Assembly (NCBI RefSeq): GCF_006874475.1
Contig: NZ_VIRM01000020.1
Span: forward strand, 62,001 to 126,000
Direction: 5' to 3'
Origin: Microbispora hainanensis
GTDB lineage: Bacteria; Actinomycetota; Actinomycetes; Streptosporangiales; Streptosporangiaceae
DNA: 64,000 bases
Shown here in pieces: positions 5,525-19,431 of this stretch. A program made the translations under genes and the position numbers. The notes beneath the pieces are model-generated. The model worked only from the letters and a program-made list of their open reading frames with translations. It was not told where the DNA came from and did no database searches. Numbering within the stretch: the stretch's first letter is position 1; every line of letters begins with the position of its first letter.

Positions 5525-6274
5525 ATGGAGTTGGCGGACGCGAGACGGCGCCGGGCGGACAGGGCCCGCCAGGTCGCCGACCTGCTGCGGCGGGAGGTCG
5601 TGCACGGCGGTTTCGGCGGCGGTCATCTGCCGCTGGAGTCCGCCCTCGCGCGGGAGTTCGGGACCTCGCGCAACACGATCAGGGACGCCCTCGACCTGTT
5701 GCGCGACGAGGGCCTCATCGAGCGGTGCCCGGGAGTCGGCACCACGGTGGCCGCGGAGAAGTACCCGCACGGCCTGCACCGGCTGCTCGGCCTCGCCGAG
5801 ACCCTCCGGGAGCACGGAGAGGTCACCAACGAGGTCCGCGCGATGGGCCTGATCCCGCCTCCGGCCGCCGTACGCGGGCGGCTCGGCCTGCCGCCCGGCG
5901 AGTCCGTCGTCTACGTGGAGCGGCTGCGCCGGCTCAACGGGCTGCCGCTCTCGCTCGACCTGACCTACCTCGTCCGCGAGGTGGGGGAGCCGCTCTTCGA
6001 CGCCGATCTCGTGCACAACGACGTGTTCGTGCTGCTGGAACGCATCGCCGGTCAGCCGCTCGGCGTGGCGGAGCTGACGATCGAGGCCGTGAACGCCGAC
6101 CCCCACACCGCGGCCGTCCTCGACGCGCCGCGCGGCGCGGCGCTGCTGATGGTCGAGCGCCTCACCCACCTGTCCGACGGCCGCCCGGTCGACCTGGAGT
6201 TCGTCAGGTTCCGCGGCGACCGCCTCACCATGCGTGGCCATCTCTGGAGGAACACCGATGACCCTGGTCAATAG
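5525..6274 (+). CDS. GntR-family regulator with UTRA domain (HutC type)
   Basis: Product of 249 residues. The winged helix is at about residues 10-80 (ALAREFGTSRNTIRDALDLL is the recognition region). A UTRA effector-binding domain follows, about 95-240, with the typical strand VVYVERLRRLNGLPLSLDLTY. It is the first gene of an operon: its 3' end overlaps the ferredoxin gene by 17 bp. I infer that it senses the imported or processed compound and controls the operon, and perhaps the second transcript at 14.2 kb that has a similar promoter block. No leader or ribosome-binding site is visible upstream, which fits a leaderless start. Confidence 0.88.
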   Translation: MELADARRRRADRARQVADLLRREVVHGGFGGGHLPLESALAREFGTSRNTIRDALDLLRDEGLIERCPGVGTTVAAEKYPHGLHRLLGLAETLREHGEVTNEVRAMGLIPPPAAVRGRLGLPPGESVVYVERLRRLNGLPLSLDLTYLVREVGEPLFDADLVHNDVFVLLERIAGQPLGVAELTIEAVNADPHTAAVLDAPRGAALLMVERLTHLSDGRPVDLEFVRFRGDRLTMRGHLWRNTDDPGQ

Positions 6275-6485
6275 CCGCGTCGACGTGCCCGTCACGATCG
6301 ACGAGTCGCTGTGCATCGAGGGCTGCACGTTGTGCGTGGACGTGTGCCCGCTCGACTCGCTGGCCATCCACGAGGTCAGCGGCAAGGCGTACATGCACGT
6401 GGACGAGTGCTGGTATTGCGGCCCCTGCGCCGACCGGTGCCCCGCGGACGCGGTCACGGTGAACATCCCCTACCTGCTCCGATAG
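6258..6485 (+). CDS. Two-[4Fe-4S] ferredoxin (AprB-like)
   Basis: Product of 75 residues with two four-cysteine clusters: C-x3-C-x2-C-x3-C-P (CIEGCTLCVDVCP, about residues 20-32) and C-x2-C-x2-C-x3-C-P (CWYCGPCADRCP). The pattern and the pairing with an AprA-like flavoprotein in the same operon recall AprB of adenylylsulfate reductase, but it is half the usual AprB length and lacks the C-terminal tail. Its likely role is electron transfer to or from the flavoprotein at 9636. The ATG at 6258 follows GGAGGAA and overlaps the GntR stop. An in-frame ATG at 6234 would add residues encoded inside the GntR gene and is not preferred. Confidence 0.88.
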   Translation: MTLVNSRVDVPVTIDESLCIEGCTLCVDVCPLDSLAIHEVSGKAYMHVDECWYCGPCADRCPADAVTVNIPYLLR

Positions 6486-6500
6486 AAGGACACACCCCCT

Positions 6501-7955
6501 ATGCGTAAGATCTTCGCCGCCGTGGCGCTGCTGGCCGCGGCCGGGTGCTCCGTGTCCGCCGGCGCCGACGACGGCCGGCAGACGGTGGTCGTCGGATATC
6601 AGTCGAAGACCATCAACACGGTGACGGCCGGGACGCTGCTGCGCGACCTCGGCTACCTCGAAAAGCGCCTCGGCGACAAATATCGCGTCGAGTGGCAGGA
6701 CTACGACACCGGCGCCCCGATCACCGCGAAGATGGTGGCCGGGAAGATCGACATCGGGTCGATGGGCGACTACCCGCTGCTCATCAACGCCTCCCGCACC
6801 CAGGGCGTGCCCGCGGCGCGCACCGAGCTCGTCTCGGTGACCGGCTACAACCTGCGCGGCGGGCTGAACGCGGTCGTCGTGCCCCCGTCGTCGGACGTGG
6901 AGACCCTGGCCGGCCTGAAGGGGAAGAAGGTCTCGGCCAGCTCGGGGTCGGCGGGGCACGGCACGCTCGTCCAGGCGCTGGAGCGGGCCGGGCTCGATCC
7001 CGCGACGGACGTCGAGGTCGTGAACCAGCAGCCGCCGGTCGGCGCGTCCGCGCTGCAGTCGGGCAACGTGCAGGGATACGCCCAGTTCGTGGCCTGGCCG
7101 GGACTGCTCGTCTTCCAGGACCAGGCCCGGCTCGTCTACGACGGCTCGGCGCTCGACGTGCCGACGTTCCACGGCGTCGTCGTACGGCAGGCGTACGCGA
7201 AGGAGCACCCGGACGTGCTCCAGGCGTTCCTCCAGGCCCAGATCGACGCGACGAACTACCTCCACGAGCACCCGGTGGAGGCGGCCGAGGCGGTGGCCAA
7301 GGCCACCGGGCTGCCGCCCGAGGTGGTCTACCTCTACAACGGCCGCGACGGCATCGCCTCGTTCGACGTGACCGTGAAGGCGCAACTGCTTTCCGCGCTG
7401 CAGCACGACGAGAAGTACCTGAAGATCATCGGCACCGACTTCACCGACGTCGACGTGACGAAGTTCGCGAACGACTCCTCCATCAGGAAGGCGTACGGCG
7501 CCTCCTACGACGCCGACACCGCGAGCACAGCCAACGCGGCGAAGATCACCGGCACCGACGAGGCCTGCGGCACCGCCGTGAGCGACCCGGCGAAGGCGGG
7601 CGAGCTCTGGCTCGCCGGGGAGGACCGGCTCCACCCCGCGGCCACCCCCACCTGCCTGCTGCGCCAGATCGCCGCCGCCGTTTCAGCGGGCACGACCGTG
7701 CGGGCCGCGTACGTGCCCGACGCGGCCACCGGGACGCATTGGTTCGCGGACAAGTCGGTCTGGGTGCGCGACCCCTCGGCGGGCGACGACGAGCGGTTCA
7801 CGCCGTTCACCACCCGGGACGGCGCGCAGGCGTACGTGAAGGAGCACCCCAGGGCCGCGATCGTCGGCTACGACGAGGCGCTGAAGGCGGCTGCGGGAGA
7901 GCCGAAGGCGACTGTGGGAGAGCCGCAGGCGGCAGCGGGAGGCGCGTCGCGATGA
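6501..7955 (+). CDS. ABC transporter substrate-binding lipoprotein (SsuA/NitT/TauT type)
   Basis: Product of 484 residues. The signal peptide ends in a lipobox LAAAGC with the lipidated Cys at 16. The following NMT1/SsuA-like periplasmic-binding fold (about 27-330) is of the kind that captures sulfonates, nitrate or thiamine precursors. It is longer than a usual SsuA (about 320 residues): an extra roughly 150-residue C-terminal segment from about 340 on contains two Cys (DEACGTA and PTCLLR) and no family I recognise. ATGA overlap with the permease shows translational coupling. The ligand cannot be read; the context points to an organosulfur compound. Confidence 0.87.
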
Positions 7956-8823
7956 GCACTCCTGCGCTGGACGCGACGCTCGGCCCCGGCGCCCCGGCCG
8001 TCGAATGCGCGGACGCCGCCACGGCGACGGGCCGCGCGAGAACGGCGGCCGGCCTGCGCGGCTGGGCGGTCAGGCTGGCCTCGCTGGCGGCCGTCGTCGC
8101 GCTGTGGCAGTGGCTGACGGTCACGGACGCCCGCATCGGGCTGCGGTTCGACCGGCTGCCCTCGCCCGCCGAGGTCGCGGCGGAGTTCGGCCGGCAGCTC
8201 GGCACGGGGATCTACTACCTCGACCTGGCCCAGAGCATGATCCGCATCCTCACCGGGTTCGCGCTGGCGGCCGTCCTCGGCATCGCCCTGGGCGTCCTGG
8301 TCGCGCGGTCCCGGTGGGCCGGAGACGTGCTGCTGCCGCCCATCGAGGTCGTCCGGCCGATCCCGGCGATCGCGCTCGTCCCGATCGCGATCCTGGTGTT
8401 CCCCACCGACGAGCAGGGCATCGTGTTCATCACGTTCGCCGCGGCGTTCTTCCCGATCATGGTGAGCACGCGGCACGCCGTACGGGCCCTGCCGACGCTG
8501 TGGGAGGACGCGGTCCGCACGATGGGCGGCGGGCGCGCGCACGTGCTGTGGAACGTCGTGCTCCCGGGCACGCTGCCGGGCGTCTTCGGCGGGCTGTCCG
8601 TCGGCATGGGCGTCGCCTGGATCTGCGTGATCTCCGCCGAGATGATCTCGGGGGAGTTCGGCGTCGGCTACCGCACCTGGCACGCCTACACGGTGGTCGA
8701 CTATCCGGCGGTGCTCGTCGGCATGGCGTCGATCGGCGTGCTCGGCTGGGTCGCCTCGGCCTCCATCGAACTGCTCGGCCGGCGCCTCACCCGCTGGCTG
8801 CCGCGCGGCGAAGGGGGTGCCCG

Positions 8824-8827
<4 letters not shown>
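7952..8827 (+). CDS. ABC transporter permease (SsuC/TauC type)
   Basis: Product of 291 residues with about six membrane helices. The cytoplasmic ATPase-contact loop is at [22 protein letters not shown] (about 190-210), an EAA-type motif of the sulfonate/nitrate/taurine importer family. The N-terminal roughly 45 residues are Ala-rich and soluble. The start overlaps the binding-protein stop, and its stop overlaps the ATPase start (ATGA both times), so the three ABC genes are strictly coupled. Confidence 0.9.
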
Positions 8828-9633
<806 letters not shown>

Positions 9634-9635
9634 AA

Positions 9636-12380
9636 GTGGACATCCCTGCCCCGGCCGACCGTACGCATCTGGAATGCGAGGTCCTGGTGGTCGGCGGCGG
9701 CACCGCCGGGACCATGGCCGCGATCACCGCCGCCGAGCGCGGCGCCGACGTCATCCTGCTGGAGAAGGCGCACGTACGGCACAGTGGCGCGCTGGCGATG
9801 GGCATGGACGGCGTGAACAACGCGGTCATCCCCGGCAAGGCCACCCCGGAGGACTACGTCGCCGAGATCACCAGGGCCAACGACGGCGTGGTCAACCAGC
9901 GCACGATCTACCAGACGGCCACGCGGGGCTACGACATGGTCCGCCGGCTGGAGCGCTACGGCGTGAAGTTCGAGAAGAACGAGCACGGCGACTACGCCGT
10001 GCGCCGGGTCCACCGCTCGGGCAGCTACGTCCTGCCCATGCCGGAGGGCAAGGACGTCAAGAAGGTCCTCTATCGCGTGCTGCGCCGCCGCGACATCCGG
10101 GAGAAGGTGCGCATCGAGAACCGGGTGATGCCGGTCCGCGTGCTGACGAGCGAGGGCCGGGCGGTCGGCGTAGCCGGGTTCGACACCCGCTCGGGCGGGT
10201 TCGTCACGGTCGCCGCCGGGGCGGTGATCCTCGCCACCGGCGCCTGCGGGCGGCTCGGCCTGCCCGCGAGCGGCTACCTCTACGGCACCTACGAGAACCC
10301 GACCAACGCCGGGGACGGCTACGCGATGGCCTACCACGCGGGCGCGGAGCTCAGCGGCATCGAATGCTTCCAGATCAACCCGCTGATCAAGGACTACAAC
10401 GGCCCGGCCTGCGCGTACGTCGCCAACCCCTTCGGCGGCTACCAGGTCAACGCCGACGGGGAGCGGTTCGTCGACTGCGACTACTGGTCGGGCCAGATGA
10501 TGGCCGAGGTGGCCAGGGAGATCGCCTCGGCCCGCGGCCCGATCTACCTCAAGACCAGCCACCTGCCGGACGAGACGCTCACCGCGCTGGAGAACATCCT
10601 CCACACGACCGAGCGGCCCACCCGGGGCACCTTCCACGCGGGACGCGGCCACGACTACCGCACCCACGACGTCGAGATGCACATCTCGGAGATCGGCCTG
10701 TGCGGCGGTCACTCCGCCTCGGGTGTCTGGGTGGACGAGAACGGCGCCACCACGGTCCCCGGCCTGTACGCCGCGGGCGACCTGGCGTGCGTGCCGCACA
10801 ACTACATGATCGGGGCGTTCGTGTTCGGCGACCTCGCCGGCGCCCACGCCGCCGAGCACCACCACACGCCGGACGGCCTGGCGGAGGACCAGATCGCCGA
10901 CGCGCACGAGCTGATCTACCGGCCGCTCCGCAACCCCGACGGCCCGCCGCAGCAGCAGGTCGAATACAAGCTGCGCCGGTTCGTCAACGACTACGTCGCC
11001 CCGCCGAAGACCGCGAGGAAGCTGGACATCGCGCTGGAGACGTTCGAGCGGATGCGCGACGAGATCGCGTCCATGGGCGCCAGGACCCCGCACGAGCTGA
11101 TGCGCTGCGCCGAGGTGACGTTCATCAGGGACTGCGCCGAGATGGCCGCCAGGTCGTCGCTGCTGCGCACCGAGAGCAGGTGGGGCCTCTATCACGACCG
11201 CGCCGACCGGCCCGAGCGGGACGACGACGAGTGGCTCTACCACCTCAACCTGCGCAAGAACGCCGCCGGGGCGATGGAGTTCGTCAAGCGCCCTGTCGAG
11301 CCCTACCTCGTGCCCGTCGAGGGCTTCACGCCCTGCCCGGCCGAGCCCGTCCTGCTCGGCGCGTACGGCACGGCGGGCCCCGCGCGGCGCAGGGCGGGCG
11401 GCCGGCTCGCCGTGGAGGCGATCGGGCGTTCGCCCCGCATCCTCGAACTGCTGCGCCTGGCCGACGGCGAGCCCACGCTCGACCAGGTCACCCCCTACCT
11501 GGCGGACGCCGATCCCAAGGTACGCAGGGCGGCCGTCGCGACGCTGACCGAGACGGCGCCCCGAGGTGTGGAGACCGCGCTCACCCGGGCCCTCGCCGAC
11601 CCGCACGGCACGGTGCGGCGCGCCGCCGCCACCGGCCTGCGCGAGCTCGTCGAGGTGCTGCCCGCGACCGCCGAGTTCGGCGCGTCGCTCCGCGCCCTCT
11701 CCGGTCACCCCGGAGAGGGTCAGGACGGAGCGGCGGACCCGGTCGTCCGGGCGGCGGTGCTCGACGTGCTGCGGGCGCTGCGCCTCGGTGACGCCGCGTT
11801 GTTCGAGGCGGCGCTCGCCGACGCGGACACGCGGGTGCGGATCGAGGCGGTCAGGGGGCTGGTCGCGCTCGACGACGCGGAGCGGGTGGCGCTCGCCGCC
11901 GATGACCGCGACCGGGAGGTACGCGTCTGGGCGGCCAGAGGGCTGGGCGTCATCGGCCTGCCGGACGGCGTCCCCGCCGTCGCGCGGCTCGTCGCCGACC
12001 CCGACCCGCTCGTCCGGGCGGCGGCCCTGGAGGCGTTCGCCGGGCTCGGCCAGGCTCTGCGCGGGGAGCCGGGCCTCGCCGAGACGGCCGTACGGGCTCT
12101 GGCGGATCCGGCCTGGCAGGTGCGGGTCGGGGCGGTGCGGGGACTGGCCGCCGCCGATCCGGACCAGGGCGCTGGACCGCTGGTGGCCGCGCTGGCCGAC
12201 CCGCACCTCGACGTGCGCAAGGCCGCGGTCCTCTCGCTGTCCGGGTGGGCGGCGCGGCCGGAGGTCGCCGCGGCCCTGCACGCCGCTCTCGGCGACTCCG
12301 ACGCCGACGTCCGGGCCTACGCCCGCAGGGCGCTGGACGCCGCCCGTGCCGACACCGCCGGGGTGCCGGCGAGGGTCTGA
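9636..12380 (+). CDS. AprA-like FAD flavoprotein fused to HEAT repeats
   Basis: Product of about 914 residues. Residues about 10-560 are an FAD-binding fumarate-reductase/AprA-type flavoprotein: dinucleotide motif VVGGGTAGTMAA (about 18-29), the RHSGALAMGMDGVNN loop, ATGACGR, and the late FAD-contact segment GLYAAGDLACV. Residues about 600-910 hold some nine HEAT-type repeats (each close to D-P-x-V-R-x-A-A-x-x-x-L), absent from classical AprA. With the ferredoxin at 6258 it forms an AprBA-like pair, but no Sat (ATP sulfurylase) or Qmo partner is nearby, so a genuine adenylylsulfate reductase role is doubtful. The start is GTG 9636: GAGGAG sits 8 nt upstream, whereas a GTG at 9630 would leave only 2 nt. 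The substrate is unknown, probably the compound imported by the linked ABC system. Confidence 0.82.
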   Translation: MDIPAPADRTHLECEVLVVGGGTAGTMAAITAAERGADVILLEKAHVRHSGALAMGMDGVNNAVIPGKATPEDYVAEITRANDGVVNQRTIYQTATRGYDMVRRLERYGVKFEKNEHGDYAVRRVHRSGSYVLPMPEGKDVKKVLYRVLRRRDIREKVRIENRVMPVRVLTSEGRAVGVAGFDTRSGGFVTVAAGAVILATGACGRLGLPASGYLYGTYENPTNAGDGYAMAYHAGAELSGIECFQINPLIKDYNGPACAYVANPFGGYQVNADGERFVDCDYWSGQMMAEVAREIASARGPIYLKTSHLPDETLTALENILHTTERPTRGTFHAGRGHDYRTHDVEMHISEIGLCGGHSASGVWVDENGATTVPGLYAAGDLACVPHNYMIGAFVFGDLAGAHAAEHHHTPDGLAEDQIADAHELIYRPLRNPDGPPQQQVEYKLRRFVNDYVAPPKTARKLDIALETFERMRDEIASMGARTPHELMRCAEVTFIRDCAEMAARSSLLRTESRWGLYHDRADRPERDDDEWLYHLNLRKNAAGAMEFVKRPVEPYLVPVEGFTPCPAEPVLLGAYGTAGPARRRAGGRLAVEAIGRSPRILELLRLADGEPTLDQVTPYLADADPKVRRAAVATLTETAPRGVETALTRALADPHGTVRRAAATGLRELVEVLPATAEFGASLRALSGHPGEGQDGAADPVVRAAVLDVLRALRLGDAALFEAALADADTRVRIEAVRGLVALDDAERVALAADDRDREVRVWAARGLGVIGLPDGVPAVARLVADPDPLVRAAALEAFAGLGQALRGEPGLAETAVRALADPAWQVRVGAVRGLAAADPDQGAGPLVAALADPHLDVRKAAVLSLSGWAARPEVAAALHAALGDSDADVRAYARRALDAARADTAGVPARV

Positions 12381-12384
12381 CCCT

Positions 12385-12480
12385 TCAGGCCACGGACTCG
12401 ACGACCCGGAAGGTCTGGCGATATGCCGTGGGGGAGACGCCCAGCGCGGCGGCGAGGTGCCGGCGGAGAGGCCATCCCTC
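12385..12480 (-). pseudogene. Remnant of an AraC-family regulator (C-terminus only)
   Basis: The last 31 codons before a stop read as the second helix-turn-helix of an AraC regulator: LRRHLAAALGVSPTAYRQTF matches the family's LRRHF...LGVSPTAYRR signature. Nothing upstream on this strand continues the domain; the frame runs into an AT-rich segment at 12480-12516. It is therefore a truncated relic lying between the flavoprotein and the sulfate-exporter gene. The deletion end probably lies near 12480. Confidence 0.7.
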
Positions 12481-12516
12481 TATTACATATCGAAAGTATA
12501 GGGAATTTGTGCCAGG

Positions 12517-12753
12517 ATGAAGCGCGTGACCGATTCCGACCGTGGTGCGCGATCCCTGGCCGTGGCCGCCGTCCCCGCCCCCAGGGGCGCCGCGGAGGCG
12601 ACCGGTGTGTGGCGTGACCCCTACCCCGGGGACACGCACTGGTATGACCTGCCGGACGACGACGCCGCGCCGGAGGAGGACGAGACCGAGATCGAGATCG
12701 AGACCGAGACCGAGGCCCGGTGGCGGCCGTGGCGCCTGATGAGACGGCGCTGA
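12517..12753 (+). CDS. Small hypothetical protein with acidic tail
   Basis: Product of 78 residues, not recognised. The middle contains VWRDPYPGDTHWYDLP, and the C-terminal third is a Glu-rich run coded by short GAGATCGAG-like repeats, followed by a basic end (RPWRLMRRR). It sits behind an AT-rich promoter-like stretch (TATAGG near 12496) about 135 bp after the flavoprotein stop. The Shine-Dalgarno is weak (CCAGG). Convergent with the exporter gene at 12856. It could be a real accessory gene of the cluster or a chance frame. Confidence 0.4.
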   Translation: MKRVTDSDRGARSLAVAAVPAPRGAAEATGVWRDPYPGDTHWYDLPDDDAAPEEDETEIEIETETEARWRPWRLMRRR

Positions 12754-12855
12754 AAGCCGCCACCGGGAGAGCGGCCGTCTCGGCCGCGCTCGTACGGCGG
12801 GCTCGTGCTGGGGGCTCGGGCTCGGGGCTAGTGGTGGGGGCTCGGGCCGCGCCGT

Positions 12856-13962
12856 TCAGGTGACGGTGAAGCCGCTGAACAGGACCGTGGCGAGCCCCAG
12901 GGCCAGCAGCACGTTGGCCACGGTGGCGGCGGCGAAGACGGCGACCGGCCGCCAGCCCGCCTCCCGGAGCGAGGCCACCCGGAACTCCAGGCCGATGCTG
13001 ACGAAGGCGAGGATGAGGAACCAGGTGCGCAGGTCGTTGGCGACGCCGATGACGGCCTTGCCCTCGGCCGCGCTCACCGTGGTGAGATACCACGTGGCCA
13101 CCACTGAGGATGCCACGAAGCCGAGCACGAACTTCGGGAACCGCCGCCACAGCTCGCCCGCGCCCGGCCGCTTGGCGCCGGGACGGCGCTCGATCCGGAA
13201 CGCGAACCAGGCGGTCAGCAAGACCACCACGACACCGATCAGGGCGTTCTGGGTGACCTTGACGATGGTGGCGACGGCCAGCGCGTTCTCGCCCGCGAGG
13301 GCGCCGGCCGCGGTCACCGCCGCCGTCGTGTCGATGTTGCCGCCGATCCAGGCGCCGGCCACCTCCGGGCTCAGCCCCAGGGCCGAGGCCAGCGCCGGGA
13401 GAATGAAGATCGACGGGAGCGCGAACACGATCACCAGGCTCGCGCTGTAGGCGAGTTGCTCCCGCCTGGCCTGTACGGCTCCCGCCGCCGCGATGGCGGC
13501 GCTGACGCCGCAGATGGACACCGCGGCCGACAGCAGCGCCCGCAGCCTGTCGTCCAGGCCGAGACGGCCGCCGAGCCACCAGGTGAACAGGAACACCGCG
13601 CTGATCAGCACGATGCCCTGGACGATCGCGGGACCGGCCGCCGTGGCGATCACCTTGAGGTTGATCGACGCCCCGAGCAGCACGAGGCCGGTCTTGATGA
13701 AGAACTCGGTGCGAAAGCCCCCGGCCAGGCGGTCGCGCAGCCCGGTCGCGGTGAGCACCGCGTTGCCGAGCAGGCCGAGGACGATCGCATAGACGGGATA
13801 TTCGATGGCCTTCGCCAGGTCGGATCCCGCGAACCATTCGGGCACGCCCTTCTCCAGGGCTCTCGTGCCGGCGGCGAGGACGAGGACGGTGAGGACGCCC
13901 AGGGCGGGCCACTGCCACGCCGTGGCCCTCGTCGCGGTGGGGACGGCCGCTTCGCTGCTCAT
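12856..13962 (-). CDS. YeiH-family putative sulfate exporter
   Basis: Product of 368 residues with about 10-11 hydrophobic helices and the family's conserved segments: KTGLVLLGASINLKVI (about 90-105), SICGVSAAIAAAGAV (about 150) and GGNIDTTAAVTAAGAL (about 205). YeiH/UPF0324 proteins are annotated as putative sulfate exporters, and relatives lie in sulfonate-degradation clusters where sulfite or sulfate must leave the cell. Here the gene lies between an AprBA-like operon and a sulfite-oxidase-like gene, which fits that role well. The start overlaps by one base (TGATG) the stop of a tiny membrane-protein gene. Confidence 0.85.
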   Translation of the reverse strand: MSSEAAVPTATRATAWQWPALGVLTVLVLAAGTRALEKGVPEWFAGSDLAKAIEYPVYAIVLGLLGNAVLTATGLRDRLAGGFRTEFFIKTGLVLLGASINLKVIATAAGPAIVQGIVLISAVFLFTWWLGGRLGLDDRLRALLSAAVSICGVSAAIAAAGAVQARREQLAYSASLVIVFALPSIFILPALASALGLSPEVAGAWIGGNIDTTAAVTAAGALAGENALAVATIVKVTQNALIGVVVVLLTAWFAFRIERRPGAKRPGAGELWRRFPKFVLGFVASSVVATWYLTTVSAAEGKAVIGVANDLRTWFLILAFVSIGLEFRVASLREAGWRPVAVFAAATVANVLLALGLATVLFSGFTVT

Positions 13963-14099
13963 CACGGCACCAGTCCCGTCGGGATCACGCCGATGAGGAC
14001 CAGCGCGAGGAGGACGAGGCCGACGATGGTGGCGGCCCAGTCCTCGTTGAAAGCGGTACGGGTGTGCTCGGCGACGGTCGGGGGGTGTTCGTTGCTCAC
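13962..14099 (-). CDS. 45-residue single-pass membrane protein, YeiH partner
   Basis: GTG-started frame of 45 codons. It has a polar N-terminus (MSNEHPPTVAEHTRTAFNED) and one clear membrane helix from WAATIVGLVLLALVLIGVIP to the end. The stop overlaps the YeiH start as TGATG, so the two are translationally coupled. The coupling and the hydrophobic nature suggest an accessory subunit of the transporter. An AAAGG/CGGAG element lies upstream. No homology claim beyond this can be made from sequence alone. Confidence 0.75.
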   Translation of the reverse strand: MSNEHPPTVAEHTRTAFNEDWAATIVGLVLLALVLIGVIPTGLVP

Positions 14100-14161
14100 T
14101 CCGGACGCCTTTCTCGGGAGTGTGAGGTGTTCGGCTCGACTGTGGAGCGCTCATCCCCATC

Positions 14162-14170
14162 AAGTCAATA
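14162..14170 (-). promoter_or_regulatory. TATTGACTT element upstream of the exporter pair
   Basis: Reading towards the exporter genes, TATTTCC is followed by TATTGACTT, with TTGACT as a possible -35 box. The same nine bases occur in the leader-peptide promoter at 17912-17920, there preceded by GGAAA. A convincing -10 at 17-bp spacing is not seen here, so it may be an operator rather than a core promoter. Confidence 0.35.
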
Positions 14171-14202
14171 GGAAATACCGGAAAGCCTTCGGCGGATAGT
14201 TG

Positions 14203-14233
14203 CTATTACCTACCGGGTTTGTGGGATAGTAGG
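14203..14233 (+). promoter_or_regulatory. Promoter/operator of the LanC-sulfite oxidase transcript
   Basis: CTATTACCTACCGGG (14203-14217) repeats the block found upstream of the GntR operon, with one inserted base. CCTAC and GTAGG (14229-14233) form a dyad. GATAGT at 14225-14230 could be a -10 box, placing the transcription start at or beside the ATG at 14237. Confidence 0.55.
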
Positions 14234-14236
14234 CGC

Positions 14237-15553
14237 ATGGGCCCGGACCCGATCCGCTCATCCGGTGAGCGTGCAGAGACTCCGCTGACGGCCGCCATCA
14301 TGGCAGGACGATGGATCCGTACGGCCGCCGTCGACGACGAGGACGGCAGGCGATGGCGGGCTAACCCCGACCCGTACGGCCGGCATGCGACGCCCGGCGG
14401 GCCCGCGTCCCTCCACTCCGGCGCGGCCGGGATCGTGCTGTTCTTCCTGGAGCTGGCCGCGGGCACCGGACACGACGCCTACCTGGAGGACGCCCGCGCG
14501 GGCGCCCGCTATCTCGCGTCGACCTGGCGGCGACAGGCCGACGTGTCGCTCCACCACGGCCTCGCCGGTGTCGTCCTCGCGCTGACCGAGGCCGGGTGGG
14601 CGCTCGGCGAGGAGCGTTTCGAGAGCGTGGCGGTCGGGGCGGCTGACAGGATCGTCAGGAGCGCCCGCGCGTTCGGCGACGGCGGCATCGGCTGGTCGGG
14701 AGACGCCACGCTGCGCGGTGACGGCGGCGTCGTGCTGGGGCTGCTGCGCGCCGCGACGGCGCTCGGCGTGCCGGCCTACGAGGAGATGGCCGTCGAGGCC
14801 GGACGGCGGATCGCGCGGCTGACCGCGCCCCGGGAGCGGCCCGCCGCGTGCCCGGCCCTGTCGGCGGAGGCGGCCCCGCCCGGCTTCCTGGCCGGCACGG
14901 CCGGGACCGCCTTCCTCCTCGCCCGCCTGTACGGCGCGACGGGCGAGGAGGCGTTCCTCGACGCGGCACGCCGCGGTGCGCACCTCGTCAGGAGGGCCGC
15001 CGTCCTGACGGGGGAGAGCGCGACCGTCACCGACCACCTGGGCTACTGCTCCGGCTCCGCCGGGATCGCGCGCATGTTCTACGAGCTGTATCGGGTGAGC
15101 GGCGACACCGGCGACCTGGAATGGGTGCGGCGGCTGGCCAGGGGCGTCAGGGAGTCCGGCGCGCCCTTCCGGCAGACCGCGGGGCTGTGGAACATCGCCT
15201 GCCAGTGCTGCGGCACCGCCGGGCTGATCGAGCTGTACGTGGGGTTATGGGCGGCGACGGGAGAGCAGGAGCATCTCGAGTTCGCCCGCAGGCTCGCCGA
15301 CCACCTGATCGGCCGGGCGACCGGCTACGACGACAGGGGATATCGCTGGTATCAGGCGTACCGGCGGCACCGCCCCGGCGAGGTGTCGGCCGACACCGGC
15401 TATCTGACCGGGGCGGCGGGGGTAGGGGCGGCCCTGCGGCACCTGGACGCGGCGGGACAGGCGGACCGGCCGCGCCGCGTGATCCTGCTGCCCGACAACC
15501 CCTTCCCGCCCATTCCCGTGCCGGCCGTCGCCCTGAGGAGGCCGGCCGGCTGA
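14237..15553 (+). CDS. Stand-alone LanC-like protein
   Basis: Product of 438 residues with the repeated Gly motifs of the LanC alpha/alpha barrel: SLHSGAAGI, SLHHGLAGV, GFLAGTAGT, GYCSGSAGI, CQCCGTAGL and LTGAAGVG. The zinc ligands of LanC cyclases are two Cys and a His; here Cys 271 lies in GYCSG, and the usual Cys-His pair is replaced by Cys324-Cys325, with a further Cys322. There is no lanthipeptide precursor, dehydratase or exporter nearby, so lantibiotic synthesis is unlikely. In this sulfur cluster it may handle a thiol or a thioether, which is inference. The gene is probably leaderless and precedes the sulfite-oxidase-like gene by 21 bp. Confidence 0.75.
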   Translation: MGPDPIRSSGERAETPLTAAIMAGRWIRTAAVDDEDGRRWRANPDPYGRHATPGGPASLHSGAAGIVLFFLELAAGTGHDAYLEDARAGARYLASTWRRQADVSLHHGLAGVVLALTEAGWALGEERFESVAVGAADRIVRSARAFGDGGIGWSGDATLRGDGGVVLGLLRAATALGVPAYEEMAVEAGRRIARLTAPRERPAACPALSAEAAPPGFLAGTAGTAFLLARLYGATGEEAFLDAARRGAHLVRRAAVLTGESATVTDHLGYCSGSAGIARMFYELYRVSGDTGDLEWVRRLARGVRESGAPFRQTAGLWNIACQCCGTAGLIELYVGLWAATGEQEHLEFARRLADHLIGRATGYDDRGYRWYQAYRRHRPGEVSADTGYLTGAAGVGAALRHLDAAGQADRPRRVILLPDNPFPPIPVPAVALRRPAG

Positions 15554-15574
15554 TCGCGGCAGGTGAGGAGGCGC

Positions 15575-16711
15575 ATGACTTCCATGAAGGACGGCCTTGA
15601 GACCCGGCGTACGGCGCCGGAGGCGGCACCCCCGCCCGGCATCCGCAAGCCCCTGCCGCCTCGCCTGTTCGCCGTGCGCGGCACGAACGCGGAGACCCGC
15701 TGGGAGGCGCTGCGCGGCGACGACTACCTGACGCCGCACGACCTCTTCTTCGTCCGCAACCACACCGCCACGCCGCTGATCGACGCGGCCGGCTGGCGGC
15801 TCACGCTGTGGGGCGACGCCCTGCGCGGCGGGCCGGTCGCGTTCACCTACCGGGACCTCCTCGGCATGCCGGCCGAGACCGTGACCGCGTTCATCGAGTG
15901 CGCGGGCAACGGCCGCCGCCTGTACGGCGAGCAGCAGAACCAGGAGGTGCCGGGCACCGCCTGGCGGCTGGGCGCGGTCGGGGTGGCGCGCTGGCGGGGC
16001 GTGCGGCTCGCGACGCTCCTGGAACGAGCGGGGATGAGCGACAGGGCCGTCGCGCTGATGCCGCGCGGGCTCGACGCCGACTACGTCGAAGCGGGGGAGA
16101 ACCTGGGCAGGGTGCGCCGCCCGCTTCCCGTGGCCAAGGCCCTGGACGACGTGCTCGTGGCCTACGAGATGAACGGCCGGCCGCTGCCGCCCGACCACGG
16201 CCATCCGGCCCGGCTGGTGGTGCCGGGCTGGGTGGGCGTCGCCTCGATCAAGTGGCTGGGGGACATCGAGGTGTCGGCGGCGCCGCTGGAGTCGCCGTGG
16301 AGCACGCGGCTCTACCGCATGCACGGCCCCGGTCACCCGCCCGGCGGCGGCCCGCCGCTGACCGGCGTGGGGGTGAAGAGCGCCTTCGAACTACCCTGGC
16401 CGGCCCGTCTCGTGGCGGGGCGCGAGCATCTGCTGCGCGGCCGTTCGTGGTCGGGCGGCGGGCGCGTGGTCCGCGTCGAGGTCAGCGACGACGAGGGCGT
16501 GTCGTGGCGGCCGGCCCGCCTGCGCGACGACCGCCACCCGCGCGGCTGGGTCCGCTGGACCTTCCCCTGGACCCCGCGCGAGCCCGGGAACCTCCGGCTG
16601 CTCGCCCGGGCCGCCGACGAGACCGGCGCCGTGCAGCCCGACCGTGCGGCGTACAACCTCCTCGGCTACGGCTTCGATGCGGTGGTGCGCCACCCCGTCG
16701 TCGTCACCTGA
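15575..16711 (+). CDS. Sulfite-oxidase-like molybdopterin oxidoreductase
   Basis: Product of 378 residues. The Mo-pterin domain (about 40-250) has the ligand Cys109 in FIECAGNGR and the family segment PPDHGHPARLVVPGW (about 208-222). A Mo-co dimerisation domain follows (about 260-375). No Tat or Sec signal and no heme-binding region, so a cytoplasmic sulfite oxidase using an unknown electron acceptor is the best reading. The ATG at 15575 follows GGTGAGGAGG. It is the second gene of the LanC transcript. The role fits oxidation of sulfite to sulfate before export by the YeiH protein; other substrates are possible. Confidence 0.82.
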   Translation: MTSMKDGLETRRTAPEAAPPPGIRKPLPPRLFAVRGTNAETRWEALRGDDYLTPHDLFFVRNHTATPLIDAAGWRLTLWGDALRGGPVAFTYRDLLGMPAETVTAFIECAGNGRRLYGEQQNQEVPGTAWRLGAVGVARWRGVRLATLLERAGMSDRAVALMPRGLDADYVEAGENLGRVRRPLPVAKALDDVLVAYEMNGRPLPPDHGHPARLVVPGWVGVASIKWLGDIEVSAAPLESPWSTRLYRMHGPGHPPGGGPPLTGVGVKSAFELPWPARLVAGREHLLRGRSWSGGGRVVRVEVSDDEGVSWRPARLRDDRHPRGWVRWTFPWTPREPGNLRLLARAADETGAVQPDRAAYNLLGYGFDAVVRHPVVVT

Positions 16712-18215: not shown

Positions 18216-18749
18216 ATGACGGAGACTCTGCTCGGCCCCGACCTCGACGCCGACGACTACAAGCGCGCGCTGGACGCCGACGGCTACAGGCGTGCGCTCG
18301 CGGTGCACGCGGCGGGAGTCGTCGTGATCACCGCGCAGCGTGAGGGAGTGCCGGTGGGGTTGACCGCGACCTCGTTCTCCTCGGTCAGCCTTGACCCGCC
18401 CCTCGTGTCCTTCTACGTGGACCAGTCGTCCACCACCTGGCCGTCCCTGCGTGAGGCCGACCACTTCGCCGTCAACGTCCTGGCCAGCGACCAGGCCGAT
18501 CTCGCCGCCCGGTTCGCCCGCAAGGGGATCGACCGGTTCGCCGAGCCCACCCGATGGCGTCCGGGGCCGCTCGGGGCGCCACTGCTCGAGGACGTCTCCG
18601 CGCACCTGATCTGCCTGCCGTACGAGCGGGTCGGCGTGGGCGACCACATCCTCGTCGTGGGGCTGGTCACCCAGGCCGAGGTGCGCGGGCCGGGGCGTCC
18701 GCTGCTCTACCACCAGGGCCGCTTCGGCCGGTTCATCGCCCACCCGTGA
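18216..18749 (+). CDS. Flavin reductase domain protein
   Basis: Product of 177 residues of the flavin-reductase-like (DIM6/NTAB, HpaC-type) split-barrel family: VVVITAQREGVPVGLTATSF (about 35-54), SLDPPLVSFYV (about 58-68) and HFAVNVLA (about 88). It should use NAD(P)H to reduce FMN or FAD for a partner oxygenase. No such monooxygenase is in the window. The N-terminus has a small internal repeat (two copies of DADxYxRAL). GGAGG precedes the ATG. First structural gene behind the sulfur-type leader, so probably cysteine- or sulfate-responsive. Confidence 0.88.
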   Translation: MTETLLGPDLDADDYKRALDADGYRRALAVHAAGVVVITAQREGVPVGLTATSFSSVSLDPPLVSFYVDQSSTTWPSLREADHFAVNVLASDQADLAARFARKGIDRFAEPTRWRPGPLGAPLLEDVSAHLICLPYERVGVGDHILVVGLVTQAEVRGPGRPLLYHQGRFGRFIAHP

Positions 18750-18799
18750 TCCCGCCCCCGCTTCGCACGAACGCCCGTTCCGATCTGGAGGACCGTCTG

Positions 18800-18868
18800 T
18801 TGACCATCCGTACGCTTTCCGACGCGGACACAGGACACGCCGAACGGCACGAGGCGGTGGTCTCGTGA
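18800..18868 (+). CDS. Possible 22-aa coupling peptide
   Basis: A TTG start preceded by a good GGAGG at 8-nt spacing opens a 22-codon frame (TIRTLSDADTGHAERHEAVVS after the start) whose TGA overlaps the GTG start of the FMN reductase (GTGA). It fills most of the 115-bp gap. It may serve only to couple translation of the next gene, or may be a true short peptide. Confidence 0.35.
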   Translation: MTIRTLSDADTGHAERHEAVVS

Positions 18869-19431
18869 GCTCTCTCGTGGCGCTGGTGGGCAATCCGCGC
18901 GGCGGTTCCCGGACCCATCTCGCGGCCGTGGCGGCGGCCGAGGCGGTGGGGCGCCGGATCGGGCACGAGGCGCCGCCCGAGGTCGTGGACCTGTCCGCGA
19001 TCGGGCCGCACCTGTTCACCCCCGGGCCCTCGCCGACCGTGGAGGTGGCGCTGGAACTGGTCGCCGGAGCGCAGGTGCTCCTGGTGGCGAGCCCGACCTA
19101 CAAGGCCACCTACACCGGCCTGCTCAAGGCGTTCCTCGACCGCCTCCCCGGTGGGGCGCTGACCGGGACGGTGGCGCTGCCGCTGCTCGTCATGGGATCC
19201 CCCCGGCACGCCCTGGCCGTCGAGCTGCACCTGCGTCCCGTGCTGGTCGAGCTGGGCGCGCTCGTGCCCACTCCCGGCCTGGCCCTGCTGGAGGCCGAGA
19301 TCCCCGACCTCGACCGGGTCCTCGCCGACTGGACGGAGCGCGTCGCCCCGCAGGTGACCGCGGCACTGGGGCCGGCACTGGGGTCGGCACTGGGGCAGCC
19401 GCACTCCGGTCGTCTCGTCGAGCCGACCTGA
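18865..19431 (+). CDS. NADPH-dependent FMN reductase (SsuE-like)
   Basis: Product of 188 residues with a flavodoxin-like fold: the FMN phosphate loop VGNPRGGSRTHLAA (about 7-20), LLVASPTYKATYTGLLKAFLDRL (about 72-94) and LLVMGSPRHAL. SsuE/MsuE enzymes supply reduced FMN to alkanesulfonate monooxygenases. The position behind a sulfur-type leader fits, but SsuD is not nearby. The GTG start is coupled to a short frame upstream. The C-terminal tail has a short repeat coded by CACTGGGG units. Confidence 0.85.
   Translation: MSSLVALVGNPRGGSRTHLAAVAAAEAVGRRIGHEAPPEVVDLSAIGPHLFTPGPSPTVEVALELVAGAQVLLVASPTYKATYTGLLKAFLDRLPGGALTGTVALPLLVMGSPRHALAVELHLRPVLVELGALVPTPGLALLEAEIPDLDRVLADWTERVAPQVTAALGPALGSALGQPHSGRLVEPT

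Follow-up and report, generated by a model that had tools for sequence, protein, structure and literature searches.

The 64,000 nucleotides (nt) of Microbispora hainanensis analysed here (GCF_006874475.1, NZ_VIRM01000020.1, positions 62,001-126,000 of the forward strand; hereafter the window, in whose numbering positions are given) contain a six-gene operon at 5525-12380 (+), which encodes a GntR-type regulator, a small ferredoxin, an SsuA-type substrate-binding protein with the permease and ATPase of an ATP-binding cassette (ABC) importer, and a flavoprotein. We propose, with a probability of about 40%, that this operon imports an organosulfur compound, most likely an organosulfate and otherwise a sulfonate, and releases sulfite from it in a ferredoxin-dependent reductive step. 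The proposal is built on sequence: on the gene set and its conservation, on the AprBA-like relationship of flavoprotein and ferredoxin, on the sulfonate-type anchor of the binding protein, and on the sulfatase which, in some relatives, accompanies this importer family instead of the flavoprotein; from these we infer the ligand class, the reaction, its product, the role of the HEAT repeats and the regulation. An earlier, sequence-only reading of this DNA had described an overlapping operon and several downstream genes, and every gene that it named is an open frame matching the named family. The overlaps are confirmed as well: the GntR and ferredoxin genes overlap by 17 nt, a gap of 15 nt separates ferredoxin and binding protein, and 4-nt overlaps follow at each junction from binding protein through flavoprotein. 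The operon consists of the following features:

5525-6274 (+), GntR/UTRA regulator, first gene of the operon (PF00392 and PF07702)
6258-6485 (+), 2x[4Fe-4S] ferredoxin of 75 amino acids (aa), AprB-like electron-transfer subunit with a Trp in its DECWYC motif (family match, conservation)
6501-7955 (+), SsuA/TauA-type substrate-binding protein with predicted anchor Gln34/Gly71/Gly89/Ser150 (TIGR01728 148.7 bits, below the cut-off of 163.5; Foldseek; conservation)
7596-7892 (+, approximate, from model secondary structure), NosL-like C-terminal domain of the binding protein (PF05573 in relatives, family profile)
7952-8827 (+), ABC permease, SsuC/TauC-type (PF00528)
8824-9633 (+), ABC ATPase, SsuB/TauB-type (PF00005; NCBIfam taurine ATPase 229 bits, below the cut-off)
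9630-12380 (+), flavoprotein with a flavin adenine dinucleotide (FAD) domain at residues ~1-570 and fused HEAT repeats at ~600-904 (FAD_binding_2; NF010374)

Conservation was assessed in a sample of 296 genomes of the class, in 31 of which (the Microbispora genome included) the flavoprotein scored above its family cut-off, and in a wider search of genome contigs which gave at least 589 related stretches. Thirty loci from the sample and 80 named from the wider search form a set of 110 other actinobacterial loci with flanks, among which species may be repeated. In 102 of these 110 loci the six-gene core is complete within 9 kb of the flavoprotein; five of the eight incomplete loci have less than 3 kb of contig upstream, and three (L087, L096 and L119) are without the importer. 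The conserved unit is this six-gene core, and the genes which follow it in the window are local neighbours shared by few relatives.

The flavoprotein belongs to NF010374 (PRK13800), scoring 1585 bits against a cut-off of 1196. This family is named 'fumarate reductase/succinate dehydrogenase flavoprotein subunit', which is not an experimentally tested function, and the label 'fumarate reductase' is misleading. A functional study of the family was not found in the openly licensed literature, where PRK13800 was listed once, incidentally, although such an absence is weak evidence; the accessible part of PMC8557817 likewise has nothing on the family. The nearest solved structure is the alpha subunit of the 3'-phosphoadenosine 5'-phosphosulfate (PAPS) reductase of Methanothermococcus thermolithotrophicus (206 bits), followed by AprA (108 bits) and, apart from a HEAT-only match, by succinate dehydrogenase (SDH, ~84 bits), with BLAST scores of 194 bits for PAPS reductase, 104 for NadB, 100 for SDH and 85 for a piece of AprA. 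In 21-row trees, which are unrooted and have long branches, the flavoproteins and the adenylylsulfate (APS) and PAPS reductases are separated from SDH and NadB with support of 100/100 and 99/98, while the branch that sets the flavoproteins apart has a bootstrap of only 77-82%. The flavoprotein thus groups with the APS/PAPS reductases and not with the fumarate reductases, the placement which the sequence-only reading had named as speaking against it. The ferredoxin gives a matching picture, as its best-ranked match of less than 300 aa is the beta subunit of PAPS reductase (8a8o_C), and the Trp of the CW-x-C motif, residue 42 in an Ilyobacter PAPS-reductase-like beta subunit, is present in all 126 ferredoxins found among 130 loci, 125 of these ferredoxins also having a loose two-cluster pattern. 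Trp42 of the M. thermolithotrophicus PAPS reductase has been proposed for electron transfer (PMC10322725). The AprBA-like pair of the sequence-only reading is upheld by the nearest structure, the ferredoxin Trp and the side of the tree on which the flavoprotein falls.

The active site itself is changed. Arg265 of the Archaeoglobus fulgidus AprA, which is also present in both PAPS reductases, is Leu252 in the flavoprotein, and Trp234 and Gly274 have become Tyr221 and Cys261, each replacement being found in 130/130 loci; we take these three AprA residues to be catalytic for APS/sulfite. Similarly, the His of the FHP motif and the Arg of the RGEGG motif, presumably the catalytic residues of SDH, are replaced by Asn250 (130/130) and by Asn, Gly or Ser (111, 16 and 3 of 130). 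Cys246, Cys261, Cys358, Cys502, His361 and His390 are invariant in all 130 flavoproteins. The genome of M. hainanensis has no match to PF01747 (Sat), as the sequence-only reading had supposed from the window, and encodes two PF01507 proteins elsewhere. Since Arg265 is lost, Sat is missing and the PF01507 proteins are present, APS is probably not the substrate of the flavoprotein, in agreement with that reading.

With regard to the importer, the modelled binding protein (predicted local distance difference test, pLDDT, 86) has SsuA of Xanthomonas and TauA as its top Foldseek matches, while lower matches include SsuA-type folds which bind pyrimidines, nitrate, bicarbonate and pyrroloquinoline quinone (PQQ). 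The sulfonate ligands are Gln30, Gly61, Gly79 and Thr132 in TauA, and Gln36, Gly68, Gly86 and Ser141 in SsuA (PMC6906117, PMC3839906). The conservation of the equivalent positions was counted among 121 loci, using those aligned at each position: TauA Gln30 corresponds to Gln34 (118/118) and Gly61 to Gly71 (119/119), the position of Gly79 (residue 89) is Gly in 108 and Ala in 11, and that of TauA Thr132/SsuA Ser141 is residue 151, an Ala or Thr beside the invariant Ser150 (120/120). Eight of the 11 published TauA residue letters agree with the aligned TauA row; N55, D84 and S109 disagree and were not used. The pocket, which the sequence-only reading had proposed to model, resembles SsuA/TauA in fold and in the Gln/Gly/Gly/Ser anchor, but does not keep TauA Glu106, Trp176 and Asp205; as these have become Asn123, Phe196 and His224, the organic part of the ligand probably differs from taurine. 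The Foldseek matches and the kept anchor residues make an organosulfur ligand likely, as had been suggested. The lipobox residue Cys16 is invariant in 20/20 actinobacterial rows and present in 98/121 loci overall, marking the predicted binding protein of the Actinomycetes as a lipoprotein. A detail absent from the sequence-only reading is an extra NosL-like domain at its C-terminus: PF05573 was matched by 6/8 family members (best E-value 1.3e-6; the window protein itself is not listed), and the family profile matches NosL 7og7 with an E-value of 4.9e-6.

The strongest clue to the ligand comes from the enzymes which accompany this importer elsewhere. The binding protein was found in 44 plasmid records. 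The flavoprotein is also present in 42 of these, at a distance of up to 6 kb in 40; two of the 42, from A. caldus, have only a fragment of it, covering 18% of the query. The remaining two of the 44, Gordonia amicalis pCP113 and Paraburkholderia PPGU16_p2, have an annotated arylsulfatase and formylglycine-generating enzyme (FGE) near the importer, plus a GntR gene. The 296 class genomes contain 35 importer places in 33 genomes, with 31 at flavoprotein loci, three with a sulfatase and one with neither, and the 298 genomes of the order of genome G031, which overlap the class sample, contain 35 importer places in 32 genomes, the 20 new stretches from this order being 18 of the flavoprotein type, one of the sulfatase type and one ended by the contig end. 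Leaving out L228 (contig end) and G447, seven importer loci have no flavoprotein nearby, and six of these pair the importer with an S1 sulfatase. Besides a sulfatase with the CTPTR motif, all six loci of this type contain a GntR gene and a match to SulP, which is partial in one locus, and five have an FGE-type maturase, which was not seen in the L216 stretch; the sulfatase, maturase and SulP stand in place of flavoprotein, ferredoxin and HEAT repeats, beside a GntR gene, a permease, an ATPase and the same predicted pocket. The assignment to S1 follows from 45 solved-structure matches at an E-value of 1e-15, all named sulfatases, with arylsulfatases first; the N-termini shown have, by eye, no evident signal peptide. 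A tblastn search across the 130 flavoprotein loci gave no close relative of the S1 sulfatase or the maturase, the sole sulfatase match being one of 27-29% identity in L096. Gln34, Asn123, Phe196 and His224 are the same in flavoprotein-type (22-23/23) and sulfatase-type (6/6) binding proteins, which also share Gly71 and Ser150, and the GntR protein of the window is 45-48% identical to those of five actinobacterial sulfatase-type loci. In a 31-row tree of binding proteins, five of the six sulfatase-type proteins occupy two separate places, and well-supported branches force two changes of partner. The five actinobacterial sulfatase-type clusters (L180, L212, L213, L214 and L216) also contain a paralogue of GyrB, the type II topoisomerase subunit B, while the Paraburkholderia stretch is without it. 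The third partner set, in L215:233-8689, comprises a galactokinase-like match and weak beta-arabinopyranosidase matches, with frames that by eye resemble a glycosyltransferase and a major facilitator superfamily (MFS) transporter.

The flavoprotein is not confined to actinobacteria. A tblastn search with the FAD domain identified 56 records in the plasmid collection, 50 of them covering at least 80% of the query, from actinobacteria, cyanobacteria, alpha-, beta- and gammaproteobacteria, and Acidithiobacillus. We examined 21 of these loci, of which 20 were annotated, and in all 20 the flavoprotein is accompanied by the ferredoxin and by HEAT repeats. The latter are a gene of their own in 19 loci (313-333 aa as one frame, two frames in L159), with Tsukamurella the sole case of fusion to the flavoprotein, and even within the Actinomycetes they are separate in L060 and L061. 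According to product names, a DUF971-type gene is present in 11/20 and an Mrp/NBP35 ATPase in 4/20 loci, and their company hints at a dedicated iron-sulfur (Fe-S) assembly. By our own count, again from product names and without a background rate, the 11-12 kb flanks of 12/20 loci contain extra sulfur genes: TauE/SafE or TSUP, YeiH, sulfonate/sulfate ABC transporters, TauD, luciferase-like (LLM) or DmoA-type monooxygenases, 3-mercaptopropionate dioxygenase, and metX/O-acetylhomoserine (OAH) sulfhydrylase. In the Leptolyngbya and two Pseudanabaena plasmids, YeiH and TauE/SafE lie behind the operon, which makes export of sulfite or sulfate plausible as an accessory step rather than a part of the core. 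In the cyanobacterial loci a divergent gene encodes a LysR regulator joined to a ligand-binding domain of the NMT1 type, as checked for L067:9307-11343 (-); genes of similar size are present in L155 and L163, and this fusion perhaps senses the imported compound.

In the mechanism that we propose, the ligand would be a small organic compound, most likely a sulfate ester (R-O-SO3), which the binding protein would hold by the SO3 group and which would enter the cell intact through the ABC importer. The FAD protein and the 2x[4Fe-4S] ferredoxin, as a heterodimer built like APS/PAPS reductase, would then cut the bond to SO3 reductively with electrons from the ferredoxin and release sulfite for assimilation; the HEAT part may hold the complex together or aid its Fe-S assembly, and GntR may sense the ligand. 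One importer family with one predicted pocket is shared by two enzyme types, of which one hydrolyses R-O-SO3 and the other has relatives that act reductively on AMP-O-SO3 (AMP, adenosine monophosphate), and reductive removal of SO3 from an organosulfate would be the simplest joint explanation. Sulfite release would also fit the sulfite/sulfate exporters and the sulfite oxidase found nearby in some lineages. A more specific version, which we offer only tentatively, is that of a reductive sulfatase. Such an FAD/[4Fe-4S] enzyme of the APS-reductase lineage would use electrons from ferredoxin to break the O-SO3 bond in imported organosulfates and would give sulfite directly, without activation of sulfate by ATP. 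The chemistry of the lost Arg265 may be replaced by an S-sulfocysteine intermediate on the invariant Cys246, Cys261 and Cys358, and the enzyme would have been swapped with a hydrolytic sulfatase, in either direction, beside one importer family at least twice.

Several points weigh against this proposal. The reductive cleavage is a proposed reaction; the AprA mechanism cannot be transferred unchanged with Leu for Arg265 in 130/130 loci, and the structure model of the flavoprotein is poor (predicted template modelling score, pTM, 0.42), so that its active site was judged by alignment only. The association with the importer is imperfect, as it is missing from the three actinobacterial loci mentioned above and as 14 of the 56 flavoprotein plasmid records have no binding-protein match; among the latter are two distant relatives and several fragments, but also full flavoproteins, e.g. 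in Nostoc. The sulfatase clue comes from relatives and not from the Microbispora window, three genomes (G031, G149 and G527) have both locus types with separate binding proteins, so that the two ligands may differ, and L215 combines the importer with sugar-type genes instead of either enzyme. Finally, the 12/20 count of sulfur neighbours is to be read with the reservations given with it.

In the main rival, which we consider unlikely, the importer would carry arylsulfonates and the pair would serve C-S cleavage of aromatic sulfonates, either by desulfonating them itself or by passing electrons to an oxygenase whose gene lies elsewhere. The model for this rival is AsfABC of Pseudomonas putida S-313 and Cupriavidus, which resembles our operon in combining an FAD reductase, a ferredoxin, a sulfonate-type importer and a regulator in sulfur supply: asf encodes a binding protein, an ABC transporter, a reductase/ferredoxin and a LysR regulator, and in P. 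putida S-313 a transposon insertion in asfA abolished the use of aromatic, not aliphatic, sulfonates (PMC4267179). AsfA and AsfB are Rmet_4334/5 (PMC2864759), and by interpolating six TauD genes we placed the asfAB genes of C. metallidurans at ~923 kb on NC_007974, an inferred position near which, at ~928-930 kb, an FAD protein and ferredoxin pair has the same layout. An AsfA-like frame lies just upstream of the flavoprotein operon in S. fredii (L179:9615-11676, interrupted) and, by coordinates, an uninterrupted match lies at the same place in S. americanum (NZ_CP013110); the SsuA/TauA-like binding protein would also suit this reading. However, AsfA so placed is distant (26% identity, 70 bits, compared with 194 for PAPS reductase) and sits on a very long branch in a separate place of the tree, its ferredoxin has CQTC instead of the Trp-containing CWYC, and the Asf regulator is LysR rather than GntR; with identity and tree position as grounds, and AsfA placed by interpolation, orthology between AsfA and the flavoprotein was ruled out. 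In addition, the six core genes contain no monooxygenase, and it is a sulfatase which replaces the flavoprotein beside the same importer family, although sulfatases are not known to cleave sulfonates. We regard as improbable that the ligand is another oxyanion, or that its sulfur group is incidental, with the flavoprotein reducing another part and the sulfatase loci reflecting a different ligand. The range of ligands bound by SsuA-type folds, the sugar-type partners in L215 and the three genomes with both locus types would allow this, whereas every aligned locus retains the Gln that coordinates the sulfonate, one Gly and Ser150, and the neighbours include sulfatase, SulP, TauE/SafE, YeiH and other sulfur genes.

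The name of NF010374 and its superfamily membership would suggest a plain APS/PAPS reductase or a fumarate/succinate enzyme, which is hardly credible: a true APS reductase was ruled out by the replacement of Arg265 and its companions and by the lack of Sat in the genome, a fumarate reductase by the replaced SDH residues and the tree, and an organosulfur importer fits neither pathway. The last alternative, which is very improbable, is the single module described in the sequence-only reading, in which importer, redox pair, YeiH, LanC-like protein and sulfite oxidase would degrade an organosulfonate to exported sulfate. These genes stand side by side in the window and in the relatives L059 and L075, and YeiH with TauE/SafE adjoins the cyanobacterial operons; YeiH is, however, on the opposite strand, and in the sequence around the 110 loci YeiH was found three times (once as a distant 31% match), the 45-aa gene twice, the LanC gene four times and the sulfite oxidase three times, compared with 102 for the core. 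The co-occurrence which that reading had suggested as a check therefore holds for the six-gene core and fails for the four neighbours, which were rejected as core parts. These neighbours are:

12856-13962 (-), YeiH-type putative sulfate exporter (PF03601 181.9 bits; TIGR00698 95 bits, below the cut-off)
13962-14099 (-), possible membrane protein of 45 aa, upstream of YeiH (no Pfam or NCBIfam match)
14219-15553 (+), LanC-like protein, LANC_like (PF05147)
15575-16711 (+), sulfite-oxidase-family molybdoenzyme (PF00174 and PF03404; SoxC 205 and SorA 175 bits, both below the cut-off)

The first ATG of the sulfite-oxidase-like gene is at 15575, with a GTG at 15563 as a possible start, and the family scans were made from 15581. 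At 18216-19431 (+), 1.5 kb past this gene, there are genes for a flavin reductase and an NADPH-dependent FMN (flavin mononucleotide) reductase, enzymes which often partner sulfonate monooxygenases.

Compared with known systems, the pair shares with AprBA and PAPS reductase (8a8o) the combination of an FAD protein and a small 2x[4Fe-4S] ferredoxin, the Trp after a cluster cysteine and the closest sequence among solved structures, but differs in the Leu, Tyr and Cys which replace Arg265, Trp234 and Gly274, in its invariant extra cysteines, shorter beta subunit and HEAT repeats, in the lack of Sat in the genome and in the link to an organosulfur importer. Likewise, the importer resembles SsuABC/TauABC, by alignment, in binding-protein fold, sulfonate anchor, and permease and ATPase type, and differs in its NosL-like domain, in the Asn, Phe and His in place of the three TauA pocket residues, and in having neither SsuD nor TauD among the six core genes. 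For plasmids of F. caldus, operons for organosulfonate uptake and assimilation have been predicted, with ferredoxin/APS reductase/GntR and an ABC sulfonate transporter on pAca1.1, pTcM1 and pTC-F14 (PMC12375680). As pTcM1 holds a relative of the flavoprotein (L070), the predicted operon and L070 are presumably the same genes; in the accessible part of that paper the operons are a prediction, without analysis of active site, HEAT repeats, NosL domain or sulfatase swap. The statement in the sequence-only reading that no characterised pathway has this gene set needs qualifying, with AsfABC as a functional precedent and the F. caldus operons as predicted ones, and stands insofar as a functional study of the flavoprotein family was not found. 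The idea of organosulfur use is not new; the present analysis adds to it the altered active site, the HEAT repeats and NosL-like domain, the cleanly delimited core and the exchange with a sulfatase.

In soil, more than 95% of the sulfur is in organic form, the major classes being sulfate esters and sulfonates (PMC4267179). The pairing of the same importer with either flavoprotein or sulfatase suggests a possibly novel route of sulfur acquisition, and if ferredoxin-driven release of sulfite without oxygen or ATP is true, it would open a new way into the sulfur cycle, in a gene family which is common by the genome and contig counts given above. The swap with a sulfatase also offers a direct and cheap test of the substrate.

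Finally, recurrent frames in the flanks of the Actinomycetes loci (25 clusters listed) gave no functional hint, several looking like chromosomal housekeeping genes; near the mycobacterial loci these include carbamoyl-phosphate-synthase-like and aspartate-carbamoyltransferase-like frames. Two operons contain insertions: in Nocardia salmonicida (L095:7786-9222, -) a frame between permease and ATPase resembles, by eye, an IS200/IS605 OrfB transposase, and in Antrihabitans (L111:2131-6914) the operon is interrupted by a further ABC importer, whose binding protein is of the NMT1 type, and by asparaginase-like and M20-peptidase-like genes.

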